From the NCBI GenBank assembly GCA_945885475.1, contig CAMCYR010000020.1, positions 1 to 55,656 on the forward strand: DNA of 55,656 nucleotides, written 5' to 3'. The stretch's first letter is position 1. Each line of letters begins with the position of its first letter. The notes below the pieces were generated by a model. The model was not told the DNA's origin and searched no databases. It was given only the letters and a program-made list of their open reading frames with translations. This DNA comes from Chitinophaga pinensis. Its GTDB lineage: Bacteria; Bacteroidota; Bacteroidia; 2-12-FULL-35-15. Below are positions 9,770-16,823 of this stretch, piece by piece. Position numbers and translations under genes: made by a program.

Positions 9770-12700
9770 TTATAAATTCCCTGCCAATACACAGGTCTTT
9801 TTGAAATGTTTTACATTACCGGAAAGATCAAACACTTCGAAATAAAAAATATATATTCCGATGCGTGCTTTTTCGCGCTCATCATTTATTCCATCCCAAG
9901 AAAATGTTCCTTTTGTACCAAGCAATTCATTTTGAATAAGGTGTTTTACAATTCGTCCTTTGCTATCGTACACGAGAATATTTGCCGTATATCCAGGAGT
10001 ATCAAAATGATAATTCATGTTCACCACATCACTCCTTCCATCTTCATCAGGAGAAAAAATTTCTGGTGTTATTTCAATGGCGTTATCTGTTTCACCTGCA
10101 TCGCTGTATTGAGAATTTTTATACGCGGGTGTTGCAAAACCAACAGCTGCTGCTGCTGAATGCCAATTGGTGCGATCCTGTGTAGGGCGTTCAAAATTAA
10201 TACGTTCTAAAGAAATACCTTTTGTGTCGGTTAATAAACCGAAATGCATATTATCATAATAGGTTAAATTATCTATGATCGCTGTTGGAGTGGATAAACA
10301 GACCGTTCCGCCAGCAATACTCATAGTAGGCAGATTGCTCATATCTAAAAAGCCTTCCGGATTGCTGGTATAATATTGAGCCTTCAGCATTGCACCATTT
10401 TCACTTAATACAATGTATTCCTGCGGAAAGATCAAATAGCCATCTGTAGAAATCGTTTCGGGATTGCTGATTGTATTCGTGATCGTATCATAGTTCGACA
10501 ACGTGAATGTATTCAAATCAATAACTTTATTCGAACGGTTGTAAATTTCTACAAAATCATATCCGCCCGTTTTAGGATCAAACATAATTTCATTGATCAC
10601 GATATCATTAGCCACAGCAGGCTCAGGGATCGCAAAGCGTGCTGAATTGTCTGCTCCCAAAGCGTTTCCGACACAATCGGTAATGGTATTGTTTACGGTA
10701 ATGGTATAAATTGTTCCAACATTTAATACTATTCCTAACGCTAACCGCACACTTTTATAATCGGGTGCAATTACTTGTACAAATATTGGAGCGCCAATAC
10801 TGTTATCGATCATGTAGATTGCCGGATTAATCATTGAAAGACTGTCAAGTGGCTCATTGAAATACAATTGAATTGTATCTGCAGCAATTACTCCAACACG
10901 AACAACTTGCGGAAGCGTATTATCCGGATTGTTTGCATAAATAGAATTCTGAACACCAGGTGTTCCTCCATTTGCATTGTTTGAGGCGCGCCAGTTGCTT
11001 ATTGCGGCACAAGGATTTGCAGGATCAATTTGTTCTAAACTGTAACCGCCATCTTTTTTTATCGCATCCTGATACCAGCTATCGGCATAAGAAACGGTCG
11101 AAACGATCATTCCATCGGGGGTTTTTAATGTAAGCGTTTGACCTGTATTCGTTAATGCGGGAAAACTCACTAAGGCTGTCGCATTTATTCCGGAAGGCAT
11201 TCCTGAGAGACCCGAAACAGATGTTAAAACAATAAAGCTGTCGGCAGGAACAATGATCCCAGGTAACACTTTTGTATTTGTACCGGCAGAGAATGTCCAA
11301 TTATTAAGATTGATCGGGAAGGCGGTTCTATTGAATAACTCTATATATTCATTATTCGGTAAAATTGTAACAATAGGATCCGGATCAGCCATAATTTCAT
11401 TGATCACAATGTCGAATGGTTTGACATTATAATAGGAAAAAACAGTTGAAAGCGGAGAAAGCAAGTTTCCTGAGCAATCAGTAATATTGGTAAAGGTGAG
11501 TGTATAGGTAGAATCAGACTGCAGTGCAGTACTTAAAAGAAAGTCGATACAGGTGAGTGTTGCATTCGCTGATATCGACAAGGGATTACCGATTCCGTTA
11601 CTGATTAAATAATTGGATGTAATTGGTAATTGTAATGCATCAATAGCTTCTGAAAAACAAACAGTAATATGTGTTGCATCAACAACGGTAACACTTACAT
11701 TCGTTGGTGGAATAAGATCAACAACAGTAGAATAAACACTGTTTTGTGTCCCGGGTGTTCCACCACTTGCATTTGTGGATGCGATCCAATTGCTAGATGC
11801 GGGACAACCTACGGGTGCATTCGGATTAATTAATTCAAGCGTCCAGCCACCATCTTTTTTAATAACATCCAGATACCATGCATCCAAATAATTTACTGAA
11901 TCAATAACGGTTAGTGTGTTATCCAATAATTTTAAATTGTCACCTGCATTGTTCAATGAAGGAAAACTAGTCAAACCAATCCGACTCCCAAAGGCAGTAA
12001 ATAGGGCTGTATCAAGTGCTGAACATAAAATTAAATATTGATTGGGACCTACTACAACATTACCAATTGTTCCTGTTGAAGAACCATCAGTAAATTTCCA
12101 ACCATTTAAATTAAATGTATTGGCACTACGGTTAAATAGTTCAACAAATTCAACAGCAGGTAGACCAATAATAGGGCTGGGATCTGCAAAAATTTCGTTT
12201 ATGATAATGTCTTTATAAAATGGAGTAACAGGGGCAACATACATGAATGTAGCGGTTGTCGTCGTTAGTGCATTCCCACTTAAATCCTGAACAGCAGTAA
12301 CCGTTAATGTGTTTAAAAGTCCACTTGAAAAAGGTGTTGCAAAGGTCAAGTGAACAAGACTTAAATTTGTTGCATCACGTACAGCAGCAGAAGGGTTTCC
12401 TAAACCGTTGTCGGCTGAATAATTTGTGAGTATTTGCGAGGTTGCCAAATCAACATTTTCATTGAATAAAACATCAACTGCTGTATTCGATAGAGCTGAA
12501 GAAGAAAGAATAGTTGGAGCAGTTACATCAACGATAATTGCGCCATTATAAAAATCATCGAAATAAAATTTTGTTGCTGAACTAACTGTATAAACAGTAG
12601 CAACACCAAAAAAACTAGAGCTTGTGAAGACGTTATCCGTTCCGGTTGCTTCCAGACCATAGGCTGTTCCACCTAATGGATCAACAAATAGACTCCAGTT

Positions 12701-13177
12701 TCCAGCTGCATCACGCGTTACTTTTACACCCAGCGTAAACGATGCAGCTATTTCTCCATTTGTCCCTCGGCAAACCGAAGTACTTGTTAAACCTGTTTGA
12801 CGGAATAATTCAACGGCATCCAAACTTCCGGCTTCACCAAATTGTAAATAGTATCCATTCAGTGCAGCTTCTAAATTTGCCTGATCAGAAACTAAATATA
12901 CTCTTCCATAGTTACTAGCTGAAGGAGCAAAGCTTTGTTTTATATAAAAATTCCATTGAAAATTATCAATTGAGGCGCCCGGACTAGCAGTTGAAAGGTA
13001 GCTAGCGCCCGCAATGGTATTGTTTAATTGTAATTGTTGAGACACATTTACAATATATTCAGCGGCATCACCACTCCACACAGGAGAAGATGTAAAATCA
13101 CCGTCTGTAAAATTATCTGTGACCTGAGCCGAAGCAAAGGACGTAATAAATAAAAAAAATAAAACAATCGAGCGCAT
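9770..13177 (-). CDS. Giant secreted protein with three lamin-tail domains and Ig-like modules
   Basis: The 1135-residue product begins with a Sec signal peptide ending at ASAQ. Residues about 20-210 look like a concanavalin-type beta-sandwich. There follow alternating SbsA/Big-like Ig modules (starting TAPTILSSSALSN, then VDLIPPTNVSV) and three lamin-tail domains whose first strands read IIINEIFADPSP, IVINEIMADPDP and IVINEIMFDPKTGG. Each contains the FVELFNRS or YIELFNRT core. The end (ITPEIFSPDEDGRSDVVN, then KGTFSWDGIND) is a FlgD-Ig/CHU_C-like module, probably the export signal. In Bacteroidota such proteins are surface or secreted, often near nucleases or phosphatases, but no catalytic domain is visible here. 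I infer a structural or adhesive role. It ends at the shared terminator at 9707. Confidence 0.85.
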   Translation of the reverse strand: MRSIVLFFLFITSFASAQVTDNFTDGDFTSSPVWSGDAAEYIVNVSQQLQLNNTIAGASYLSTASPGASIDNFQWNFYIKQSFAPSASNYGRVYLVSDQANLEAALNGYYLQFGEAGSLDAVELFRQTGLTSTSVCRGTNGEIAASFTLGVKVTRDAAGNWSLFVDPLGGTAYGLEATGTDNVFTSSSFFGVATVYTVSSATKFYFDDFYNGAIIVDVTAPTILSSSALSNTAVDVLFNENVDLATSQILTNYSADNGLGNPSAAVRDATNLSLVHLTFATPFSSGLLNTLTVTAVQDLSGNALTTTTATFMYVAPVTPFYKDIIINEIFADPSPIIGLPAVEFVELFNRSANTFNLNGWKFTDGSSTGTIGNVVVGPNQYLILCSALDTALFTAFGSRIGLTSFPSLNNAGDNLKLLDNTLTVIDSVNYLDAWYLDVIKKDGGWTLELINPNAPVGCPASSNWIASTNASGGTPGTQNSVYSTVVDLIPPTNVSVTVVDATHITVCFSEAIDALQLPITSNYLISNGIGNPLSISANATLTCIDFLLSTALQSDSTYTLTFTNITDCSGNLLSPLSTVFSYYNVKPFDIVINEIMADPDPIVTILPNNEYIELFNRTAFPINLNNWTFSAGTNTKVLPGIIVPADSFIVLTSVSGLSGMPSGINATALVSFPALTNTGQTLTLKTPDGMIVSTVSYADSWYQDAIKKDGGYSLEQIDPANPCAAISNWRASNNANGGTPGVQNSIYANNPDNTLPQVVRVGVIAADTIQLYFNEPLDSLSMINPAIYMIDNSIGAPIFVQVIAPDYKSVRLALGIVLNVGTIYTITVNNTITDCVGNALGADNSARFAIPEPAVANDIVINEIMFDPKTGGYDFVEIYNRSNKVIDLNTFTLSNYDTITNTISNPETISTDGYLIFPQEYIVLSENGAMLKAQYYTSNPEGFLDMSNLPTMSIAGGTVCLSTPTAIIDNLTYYDNMHFGLLTDTKGISLERINFERPTQDRTNWHSAAAAVGFATPAYKNSQYSDAGETDNAIEITPEIFSPDEDGRSDVVNMNYHFDTPGYTANILVYDSKGRIVKHLIQNELLGTKGTFSWDGINDEREKARIGIYIFYFEVFDLSGNVKHFKKTCVLAGNL

Positions 13178-13280: not shown

Positions 13281-13311
13281 TTGACAATTAAATAAAAACA
13301 AATTAGCTTTG
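13281..13311 (+). promoter_or_regulatory. Promoter of the asd leader
   Basis: TTG at 13281-13283 and TAGCTTTG at 13304-13311 are separated by exactly 20 nt and match the TTG / TAnnTTTG consensus of Bacteroidota. Transcription should start at about 13316-13320, at or just before the leader ATG at 13321. Confidence 0.65.
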
Positions 13312-13320
13312 TCACTGCAA

Positions 13321-13386
13321 ATGAAAATGATCTGTAAAAATAAAAAACACGATAAGAAACTTTTCCACAGCGGAAAGGGAAACTAA
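13321..13386 (+). CDS. Putative lysine-rich leader peptide of asd
   Basis: A 21-codon frame (ATG 13321, TAA 13384-13386) lies between a good promoter and a terminator, 102 bp before asd. Seven of 21 residues are Lys (positions 2, 6, 8, 9, 12, 13 and 19); the core reads NKKHDKKLFH. The Lys pairs at codons 8-9 and 12-13 sit immediately before the first hairpin segment (13360-13366), where a stalled ribosome would cover it. Asd makes a precursor of lysine, so the residue bias matches the pathway product. Lysine is common in AT-rich genomes, so the enrichment alone is weak. The position relative to the four hairpin segments is the stronger argument. Confidence 0.55.
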   Translation: MKMICKNKKHDKKLFHSGKGN

Positions 13387-13442
13387 TGTTTTTTATATAA
13401 ACGATAAACACAGAAGCCTTTCCAAATTGGAAAGGTTTTTTT
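13360..13442 (+). promoter_or_regulatory. Candidate transcription attenuator controlling asd
   Basis: Four segments alternate in complementarity: 1 CTTTTCC (13360-13366), 2 GGAAAGG (13372-13378), 3 CCTTTCC (13417-13423) and 4 GGAAAGG (13429-13435), followed by seven T (13436-13442). Segments 3 and 4 form a perfect rho-independent terminator. Segments 2 and 3 pair perfectly, which gives an antiterminator. Segments 1 and 2 pair with one G-U. Segments 1 and 2 lie inside the leader reading frame. A ribosome stalled at the Lys codons would mask segment 1 and favour 2:3 (read-through). One reaching the stop would mask segment 2 and favour 3:4 (termination). This is the trp/his-type layout. The lysine specificity is inferred. 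Confidence 0.6.
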
Positions 13443-13488
13443 ATATCGCCATTTCAAATATGAATGTGGCGAAAAATAAATAAATAAA

Positions 13489-14475
13489 ATGAAAGTAGCA
13501 GTAGTAGGTGCAACCGGTTTGGTTGGTACAAAAATGATCCAAGTGTTGGAAGAACGTAATTTTCCGATAACAGAACTAATACCAGTAGCATCTGAGCGTT
13601 CGGTTGGTAAGGAAATTTCTTATAAAGGAAAAATATTCAAGGTAGTTAGTATGCAAACGGCAATTGACATGAAGCCCGCTGTTGCTTTGTTCTCTGCCGG
13701 AGGAAGCACTTCACTTGACTGGGCTCCGAAATTTGCTGCTGCAGGAATTACTGTCATTGATAACTCATCGGCATGGAGAATGGATGCAACAAAAAAACTA
13801 GTTGTTCCGGAAATCAATGCGTTAGAATTAACTGCTATAGATAAAATTATCGCTAACCCAAACTGCTCTACGATTCAAATGGTGGTAGCATTAAATCCAT
13901 TGCATAAAAAATACAAGATTCAACGCATCGTTGTGTCTACGTATCAATCGGTAACGGGTACAGGCGTAAAAGCGGTTGATCAGTTGATGAACGAGCGCAA
14001 GGGACTGAAAGGTGAAATGGCTTATCCCTACCCGATCGACTTGAATGTGATTCCGCAAATTGATGTTTTCACCGACAATGGTTACACCAAAGAAGAGATG
14101 AAAATGGTGAATGAAACAAAAAAAATCATGGACAATAACATTCGTGTAACAGCTACAACAGTGCGTATTCCGGTGATGGGTGGACATAGTGAGAGCGTGA
14201 ATGTTGAATTTGAAAATGAATTTGAAATGGAGGAAGTGCGCAACATTTTACAAAATGCACCCGGAGTTATTTTAGTGGATGACGTGAAAAATTTAAAATA
14301 CCCGATGCCCATGGATGCGCAGGATAAAGACGACGTATTTGTTGGTCGTTTGCGTAGAGATGAAACACAAGCAAAGACATTAAATATGTGGATTGTTTCG
14401 GATAATCTTCGTAAAGGTGCTGCAACCAACGCAATTCAGATAGCTGAGTATTTAGTTGAAAAAAAGTTGATATAG
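13489..14475 (+). CDS. asd: Aspartate-semialdehyde dehydrogenase
   Basis: The 328-residue product matches Asd in length and motifs. It has an NADP-binding GATGLVGTKM at residues 8-17, SERSVGKEI, the active-site Cys126 in NPNCSTIQ, Arg226 in RIPV and the acid-base His233 in GGHSESV. The enzyme reduces aspartyl phosphate to aspartate semialdehyde, the branch-point precursor of lysine/diaminopimelate, threonine and methionine. The ATG at 13489 is preceded by a hairpin at 13446-13472 (TCGCCA/TGGCGA) and by the putative Lys attenuator. The gene stands alone. The next gene, lspA, is convergent, with only 36 bp between the stop codons. Confidence 0.96.
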   Translation: MKVAVVGATGLVGTKMIQVLEERNFPITELIPVASERSVGKEISYKGKIFKVVSMQTAIDMKPAVALFSAGGSTSLDWAPKFAAAGITVIDNSSAWRMDATKKLVVPEINALELTAIDKIIANPNCSTIQMVVALNPLHKKYKIQRIVVSTYQSVTGTGVKAVDQLMNERKGLKGEMAYPYPIDLNVIPQIDVFTDNGYTKEEMKMVNETKKIMDNNIRVTATTVRIPVMGGHSESVNVEFENEFEMEEVRNILQNAPGVILVDDVKNLKYPMPMDAQDKDDVFVGRLRRDETQAKTLNMWIVSDNLRKGAATNAIQIAEYLVEKKLI

Positions 14476-15809: not shown

Positions 15810-16823
15810 TTATGAATTTTGCTCCAATTTAGCTTCAATCGCTAATGTAGCATGAGGAACACTTCTTAAGCGTTGCTTAGAGATCAATTTACCCGTTGAT
15901 CTGCAAATACCATATGTTTTGTTTTCGATACGGATCAATGCATTCTGAAGATTTTGAATAAATTTCTCCTGACGACCAGCCAAATGAGCTGTTTCTTCTT
16001 TTGACAATACATCAGAACCATCTTCTAACAACTTGAACGTAGGAGACGTATCATCTGTCCCGTGATCATCCTTGTGAGAAAGAGTGCTCTTCAGCAATTC
16101 AAAATCTTTTTGAGCTTCAGATAATTTTTTGAGAATCAATTCCTTGAATTCTTTTAATTCGCTGTCAGAATAACGGGTACGTGTATCTGTATTGATATGC
16201 GGTTTAGGAGCAGGCCCCAAGGGCTTACGGATAGAAGGCGTTTTGTATTCTACCACCATTGGTGCTTCATCAGAACTATAATCATCATCAGTTGCAAACT
16301 CACGTTTTTTCTTAGCCAAAGCCTCCGCCTTTTTAGCAACAACAGGAGAAACTTTAGGAGCTACAACCGGTTTGGCCGGAGCTACTTTTTTCACTTCTAC
16401 CTTAGCTGGCTTCGCAACTACTTTAGCTACAGGTTTAGGACTTACTTTTTTTGCTACAGGCTTAACGATTTTTTTTGCAACAACTTTTTTAGCAATTACT
16501 TTTTTTACCACTTTTTTAGGAGCTGCTTTTTTTGCAACAACTTTTTTAACCGGCTTTTTAGCAACTACCTTTTTAACTATTTTTTTTGCAAGCACCTTTT
16601 TAACAGGTTTTTTTGCAATTGCTTTTTTTACAGGTTTAACCGCTTTTTTAGGAGCTGCTTTTTTTGCAACTACCTTTTTAACAGGTTTTTTTGCTACTGC
16701 TTTTTTTGCAGGTTTTACAACTTTTTTAGGAGCTGCTTTTTTTGCAGGCTTTTTTGCTACCGCTTTCTTTGCAGGTTTTGCAGCTTTTTTTGCCGGTTTG
16801 CCTTTTTGCGCTTTTTTAGCCAT
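15810..16823 (-). CDS. DksA/TraR-family protein with a long histone-H1-like N-terminal tail
   Basis: The 337-residue product has two parts. Residues 1 to about 170 are almost only Lys, Ala, Pro and Val in short repeats (AKKPVKKVVAKKAAPKK), like the tails of histone H1 and bacterial H1-like proteins, and should bind DNA or RNA. Residues about 205-337 are a DksA/TraR-like coiled coil and end domain (YSDSELKEFKELILKKL, then YGICRSTGKLISKQRLRSV and PHATLAIEAK). Only one Cys (307) of the four zinc-finger Cys is left, as I recall for other Bacteroidota homologues. DksA proteins act on RNA polymerase in the stringent response. The gene follows ileS by 8 bp, so the two are co-transcribed. A role in nucleoid or transcription control is inferred. 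Confidence 0.82.
   Translation of the reverse strand: MAKKAQKGKPAKKAAKPAKKAVAKKPAKKAAPKKVVKPAKKAVAKKPVKKVVAKKAAPKKAVKPVKKAIAKKPVKKVLAKKIVKKVVAKKPVKKVVAKKAAPKKVVKKVIAKKVVAKKIVKPVAKKVSPKPVAKVVAKPAKVEVKKVAPAKPVVAPKVSPVVAKKAEALAKKKREFATDDDYSSDEAPMVVEYKTPSIRKPLGPAPKPHINTDTRTRYSDSELKEFKELILKKLSEAQKDFELLKSTLSHKDDHGTDDTSPTFKLLEDGSDVLSKEETAHLAGRQEKFIQNLQNALIRIENKTYGICRSTGKLISKQRLRSVPHATLAIEAKLEQNS

Follow-up and report, generated by a model that had tools for sequence, protein, structure and literature searches.

A candidate lysine-responsive transcription attenuator upstream of asd in Bacteroidia

In the 55,656-nucleotide stretch of DNA analyzed here (the window), which comes from an uncultured host, a small lysine-rich ORF and an RNA switch upstream of asd can be read directly from the sequence. 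The asd gene is present in one copy in the host's own genome and has relatives across Bacteroidota. A sequence-only reading of the region had listed a promoter (TTG-N20-TAGCTTTG), a 21-codon ORF with seven lysines, four short segments, and a T run, and we found every one of these in place (Table 1). Direct reading also confirmed the placement of segments 1 and 2 within the leader ORF and of the terminator 3′ of its stop codon. Missing from that earlier list was an additional pairing, stem A, which joins the leader ORF's Lys tract to the spacer that follows the stop codon.

Table 1. Features of the asd leader, in window coordinates.
Feature	Position	Strand	Details and evidence
Promoter, Bacteroidota-type	13281..13311	+	TTG 13281-13283, N20 spacer, TAGCTTTG 13304-13311; sequence
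Leader peptide ORF, MKMICKNKKHDKKLFHSGKGN followed by a stop codon	13321..13386	+	21 codons, 7 Lys; sequence; open in relatives
Stem A, 5′ arm, within the Lys tract of the leader ORF	13340..13349	+	MFE fold; swap test
Control codons AAG AAA (Lys12-Lys13), conserved Lys pair	13354..13359	+	Excess of synonymous changes; spacing to segment 2
Segment 1, CTTTTCC	13360..13366	+	Sequence; 1:2 pairing without covariation
Segment 2, GGAAAGG, antiterminator 5′ arm	13372..13378	+	2:3 swap test
Stem A, 3′ arm, spacer right after the leader stop codon	13387..13396	+	MFE fold; swap test
Segment 3, CCTTTCC, antiterminator 3′ arm and terminator 5′ arm	13418..13424	+	Sequence; swap tests
Segment 4, GGAAAGG (13429-13435), and 7-T run (13436-13442), intrinsic terminator 3′ arm	13429..13442	+	Fold; 3:4 swap test
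asd, aspartate-semialdehyde dehydrogenase, predicted regulated gene	13489..14475	+	328-aa ORF; name by sequence similarity and family knowledge

The divergent neighbor gene (9770-13177, minus strand) encodes a probably secreted protein of 1135 amino acids with repeated segments that look lamin-tail-like, and its homologs adjoin asd in several congeners. At 15810-16823, also on the minus strand, is an ORF whose long N-terminal tail is histone-H1-like and rich in Lys, Ala, and Pro, and whose C-terminal part looks to be of the DksA/TraR type.

Because the promoter ends 9 nucleotides before the leader ATG (13321), the leader transcript probably has next to no 5′ untranslated sequence. Among relatives, TAnnTTYG ends 6–9 nucleotides 5′ of the leader ATG in 86 of the 94 leaders that carry the motif, 46 further leaders having no exact match to it. 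The leader RNA of the window folds with an energy of −29.6 kcal/mol (z = −4.3), which none of 200 shuffles equaled, and the terminator hairpin has an energy of about −13.9 kcal/mol. The minimum-free-energy fold leaves the conserved Lys pair unpaired, in the stretch that links stem A to segment 1. The interval between stem A and the terminator (13394-13413) contains a block that the genus keeps in a form like TATATAAACGTATAATCACA and that often reads ATATAAC in Chitinophagaceae; none of the pairings that we tested accounts for this block, which may be a pause site.

For searches among relatives we built a sequence-only model, R1, from 32 asd leaders, leaving base pairs out of it to keep the tests of pairing independent. 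In the host's own genome R1 found a single strong site, at asd (E = 4.4e-21); the next best match (E = 1.8e-6) was a partial match to the terminator half, and the remaining matches were partial or weak. The 36 congeneric genomes, which also constituted the order- and family-level sets, yielded 12 complete sites and one remnant. At the class level sites were present in 20 of 395 genomes, from families coded f1, f27, f35, f37, and f41, and in Chitinophagaceae, which we took f35 to be, they were present in 237 of 396 genomes. The element is thus conserved across five families.

We also compared asd upstream regions from the 36 congeneric genomes and from 80 named Bacteroidota contigs. Within the genus the leader was kept in about a third of the genomes (as in L083, MKMILKNKKHGKKRFHSGKVN, and L099, MIMDQHKKCGKKRFHNGEGC), and more than half of the genomes were without it, among them the close relatives represented by L082, L089, and L091. 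A shorter relative, such as MMTLKHTKRTKKPL, occurs in many Chitinophagaceae, including Niabella, Niastella, Limnovirga, Sediminibacterium, Flavihumibacter, and others. No such leader was found at the asd loci of Mucilaginibacter, Pedobacter, Sphingobacterium, Dyadobacter, Hymenobacter, Spirosoma, and Algoriphagus.

In the close congener G031, whose asd is 96% identical (L132, G031:C57:125-209, and L082), a remnant of the leader ORF still sits beside the divergent neighbor gene, with the terminator and asd missing next to it; asd itself lies on another contig, leaderless, behind an unrelated gene. This remnant is the product of decay after a rearrangement. At L090 (G030:C4:80810-80929) one A is missing from the A run of the leader, placing the Lys pair out of frame (MKMICKIKNTTRKVSIA), and stem A and the terminator are retained despite the frameshift. 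The single-base deletion may represent decay, programmed slippage, or an error of sequencing or assembly.

The leader ORF, first noted in one sequence and put forward as something that relatives should keep, was open in all 121 of the 121 model matches as well as in 11 genus leaders including that of the window, with a core of KHTKR[T/I]KK across relatives. Lysine accounted for 26% of leader codons, the corresponding shares in the two alternative frames being 8% and 11%. The Lys codons themselves proved to be kept by selection at the level of the amino acid, as judged from codon changes reconstructed by parsimony for 139 leaders on a tree of the asd proteins. Numbering codons relative to the Lys pair, we found that 29 of 48 changes were synonymous at Lys codon −3 (8.7 expected from mutation alone), 13 of 22 at Lys codon 0 (4.0 expected), and 15 of 23 at Lys codon +1 (4.2 expected), such that the three codons together had 57 synonymous changes among 93 inferred, versus ~17 expected. 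On the same tree the flanking codons −2, +2, and +3 had no synonymous excess over expectation. Because the changes at the Lys pair fell mainly at third codon positions, what is constrained is the amino acid rather than simply the A-richness of the stretch. A full KK was absent from ~15 of 146 leaders after allowing for differences in register, some of these having one Lys rather than two.

These codon patterns bear on two explanations that dispense with lysine as the signal. A-rich Lys runs slow ribosomes or cause them to slip, and the leaders are strongly A-rich, which raises the idea that the Lys tract itself, through its codons or through a basic nascent peptide, slows the ribosome and produces either constant read-through or a response to the general rate of translation. 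We regard this explanation as improbable because AAG and AAA interchange, because Arg was not observed substituting for Lys at the pair, and because the element was found at no genes other than asd and dapA. The other explanation, in which an intrinsic terminator happens to follow a chance K-rich ORF and nothing is regulated, draws on the commonness of Lys codons in AT-rich sequence and on the existence of the leaderless close relatives. Against it stand conservation across five families, codon-level selection, the covariation of 2:3 described below, and the rarity of such ORFs, only 2 of the 508 ATG ORFs of 12–35 codons in the window having at least seven lysines, with the leader ORF being one of the two; we give it next to no credence.

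A test of whether the three alternative pairings of the four segments, 1:2, 2:3, and 3:4, covary in relatives had been suggested. We examined them with a swap test, in which the pairing energy of a segment with its own partner was compared with that obtained with partners from other sequences over 5000 permutations; the test treats related sequences as independent and is inflated by kinship, although the margins were large. The 3:4 terminator had −17.2 kcal/mol with its own partners and −13.7 kcal/mol with swapped ones, and the 2:3 antiterminator had −16.2 versus −13.9 kcal/mol. Stem A behaved in the same way (−9.4 versus −6.9 kcal/mol), and in all three cases the observed value lay beyond the best of the 5000 permutations. 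The short and mostly invariant 1:2 pairing had no signal (−5.7 versus −5.6), nor was there any in a control stretch of the leader. Because the TTCC/GGAA core of 1:2 is nearly invariant in many leaders, the swap test neither proves nor refutes this pairing; as the main protector of segment 2, however, 1:2 is not supported. Covariation at stem A and its absence at 1:2 make stem A the better candidate for the protector, a role that it can fill because it encloses segment 2 and is thereby incompatible with the nested 2:3 pairing. Several pair types occurred in stem A and toward the ends of 2:3 in tallies that were made on energy-chosen pairs and serve solely as an illustration of the swap test. 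RNAalifold recovered the terminator alone from a mixed alignment because stem A is offset between families.

The position of the Lys pair relative to these pairings is also conserved, with 13–19 nucleotides separating the start of the pair from segment 2 in 135 of 146 leaders. Because a ribosome covers ~12 nucleotides of mRNA downstream of the codon being translated (PMC4833913), one stalled at the pair would leave segment 2 free. In the window, Lys12-Lys13 is the only Lys pair at this classical spacing to segment 2, which amends the earlier placement of segments 1 and 2 just after Lys pairs. Folding with segment 1 or 2 masked had been suggested as a check. When RNA made up to segment 4 was folded with a ribosome at the Lys pair, 2:3 formed in 99–100% of leaders, compared with 7–30% when the ribosome was at the stop codon, and stalls at Lys were separated from those at the stop codon with footprints of 9, 12, and 15 nucleotides. 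The same folding did not distinguish the Lys pair from codons lying farther 5′, the simple mask also predicting 2:3 for stalls well upstream of the pair. When the RNA up to segment 4 was folded without a ribosome, 2:3 formed in 71% of leaders, but not in that of the window; because 2:3 is thermodynamically favored in these leaders, the notion that an untranslated leader is a terminated one rests on the order of folding.

Together, these features suggest how the element might work. Nascent RNA would begin a few bases 5′ of the leader ATG and be translated at once. With plentiful Lys-tRNA, the ribosome would reach the stop codon and cover segment 2 (or stem A would close after its release), in which case the 3:4 terminator would form and asd would not be transcribed. 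When Lys-tRNA is short, the ribosome would stall at the conserved Lys pair, and possibly also at nearby Lys codons, occupying the 5′ arm of stem A and segment 1 and leaving segment 2 free to pair with segment 3, such that no terminator would form and the polymerase would enter asd. Through such a switch the cell would very probably make more Asd enzyme only when lysine is short.

The genes downstream of the element fit this proposal. At the ~135 sites where we read the downstream gene it was asd or dapA every time, with no third gene among them; the first 121 sites inspected comprised 115 at asd and 6 at dapA (L196 being dapA by sequence). A second copy of the attenuator was found upstream of dapA in 17 genomes from five Chitinophagaceae genera (including L152, L170, L192, L194, L196, L198, L284, L286-L291, L293, L294, and L296). 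Among the genomes with two sites the exception was G732, in which the second site precedes another asd copy on a short contig. The host's own dapA and both of its aspartokinase genes have no leader, which leaves asd as the sole site found in its genome. Both downstream genes function, by established pathway knowledge, in making the amino acid that is presumed to be sensed: asd catalyzes a step shared by the routes to Lys, Thr, Met, and Ile, and dapA the first step of the lysine branch. Having dapA as the second target therefore provides independent support for lysine as the signal.

The same two genes are typical targets of the L-box elsewhere (PMC5584792), as would be expected if the element were a lysine-binding riboswitch, L-box-like or new, with an incidental ORF whose translation is unneeded. 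Rfam, however, contained nothing of this kind, either for the window at gathering thresholds or for 12 leader loci at E ≤ 0.1; in particular, the L-box (RF00168), the Bacteroid-trp motif (RF01692), and the asd motif (RF01732) had no match in the window or in the 12 relatives. Moreover, the leaders have no conserved core of aptamer size, and their conserved Lys codons fall in an unpaired linker, with variation at the third position of the codon. We consider a riboswitch very improbable.

Lysine might not be the only amino acid sensed. The asd leaders of Chitinophagaceae could be joint sensors in which codons for Thr, or for the Ile made from it, act as control codons alongside those for Lys, with the dapA leaders and those of the window's genus responding to Lys only. 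Of 139 asd leaders, 69 have Thr and 34 have Ile at the codon just 5′ of the Lys pair, each of the four Thr codons being represented, and in the folding model a stall at this codon would also mask segment 1. In the 16 genomes for which both leaders were read, those of dapA have Val or Ser at this position, and they contain less Thr (1.19 versus 2.19 in the asd leaders) and less Met (0.25 versus 1.31). The role of asd as a step shared with Thr, Met, and Ile fits as well. Against joint sensing, the synonymous excess at the codon preceding the Lys pair is weak (34 versus 25.8 expected), Thr changes to Ile by a C-to-T transition, a single duplication may have given rise to the dapA copies, and in the genus of the window this codon encodes Asp, Gly, Cys, Met, Asn, or Ser. 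We therefore regard joint sensing as tentative and, on balance, doubtful. The second copies at dapA look like a duplication of the leader followed by retuning, and a more speculative extension, which we think rather unlikely, is a two-tier regulon of the aspartate family, in which asd leaders would read Lys plus Thr/Ile (and perhaps Met) and the duplicated dapA leader would have been stripped to its Lys codons. If true, a shortage of any end product would open asd, and only a shortage of lysine would open the lysine branch. The asd/dapA duplication is a natural experiment on the fate of control codons once a leader comes to serve a narrower step of a pathway.

With respect to lysine itself, the sequence-only reading had recognized the layout of ribosome-mediated attenuation, and the open leader, the covariation of 2:3 and 3:4, the selection on Lys codons, and the dapA copies all argue for it. 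Judging from these sequence comparisons, we assign a probability of roughly 0.86 to a lysine-responsive, ribosome-mediated transcription attenuator upstream of asd. The best reading is one of classical attenuation by charged tRNA-Lys, operating in a new lysine regulon of Bacteroidia.

The closest parallels are the enterobacterial attenuators of trp, his, thr, ilv, leu, and pheA, which likewise have a leader ORF rich in codons for the product of the pathway, control codons spaced for stalling, 2:3 and 3:4 pairings that exclude each other, a T run, and a stop codon placed such that the terminating ribosome covers segment 2. Unlike them, the asd leader is predicted to sense lysine, for which we found no described member; stem A, which encloses segment 2, appears to act as its protector in place of a covarying 1:2 pairing; and it probably has a nearly leaderless start and belongs to Bacteroidota. 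The earlier statement that no lysine-codon attenuator of asd was known in Bacteroidota agreed with our search of the full-text open-licence literature, which found none for asd or dapA. The Bacteroid-trp motif is an attenuator-type element whose name points to trp genes. It is a cis-regulatory RNA motif of Bacteroidetes (PMC2864571) and a different family from the present element, which precedes asd or dapA. In Flavobacterium psychrophilum, leader-peptide attenuators operating by the same inferred mechanism in the same phylum have been proposed upstream of amino-acid operons, and the structured 5′ elements given as examples in the main text of that report are those of pheA, hisG, ftsY, acsA, alaS, and rimP, with no asd or lysine genes among them (PMC9723704).

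The asd motif is also associated with asd, but its host group, Lactobacillales, differs. Control of lysine in bacteria is usually described in terms of the L-box riboswitch and protein regulators. The L-box shares with the present element its targets, asd and dapA, and its end, lysine-controlled premature termination, but unlike the asd leader it binds lysine directly and needs no leader ORF; a survey of 468 L-boxes never mentioned Bacteroidetes (PMC5584792). The type of mechanism is old; as far as we could check in the open-licence literature and Rfam, there is no description of the lysine regulon, of its breadth, or of the layout with stem A. Because the element is widespread in Chitinophagaceae and absent from Rfam, it predicts the regulation of asd or dapA in hundreds of genomes, and ribosome-mediated attenuation appears to control lysine in a large group for which the survey recorded no L-box.
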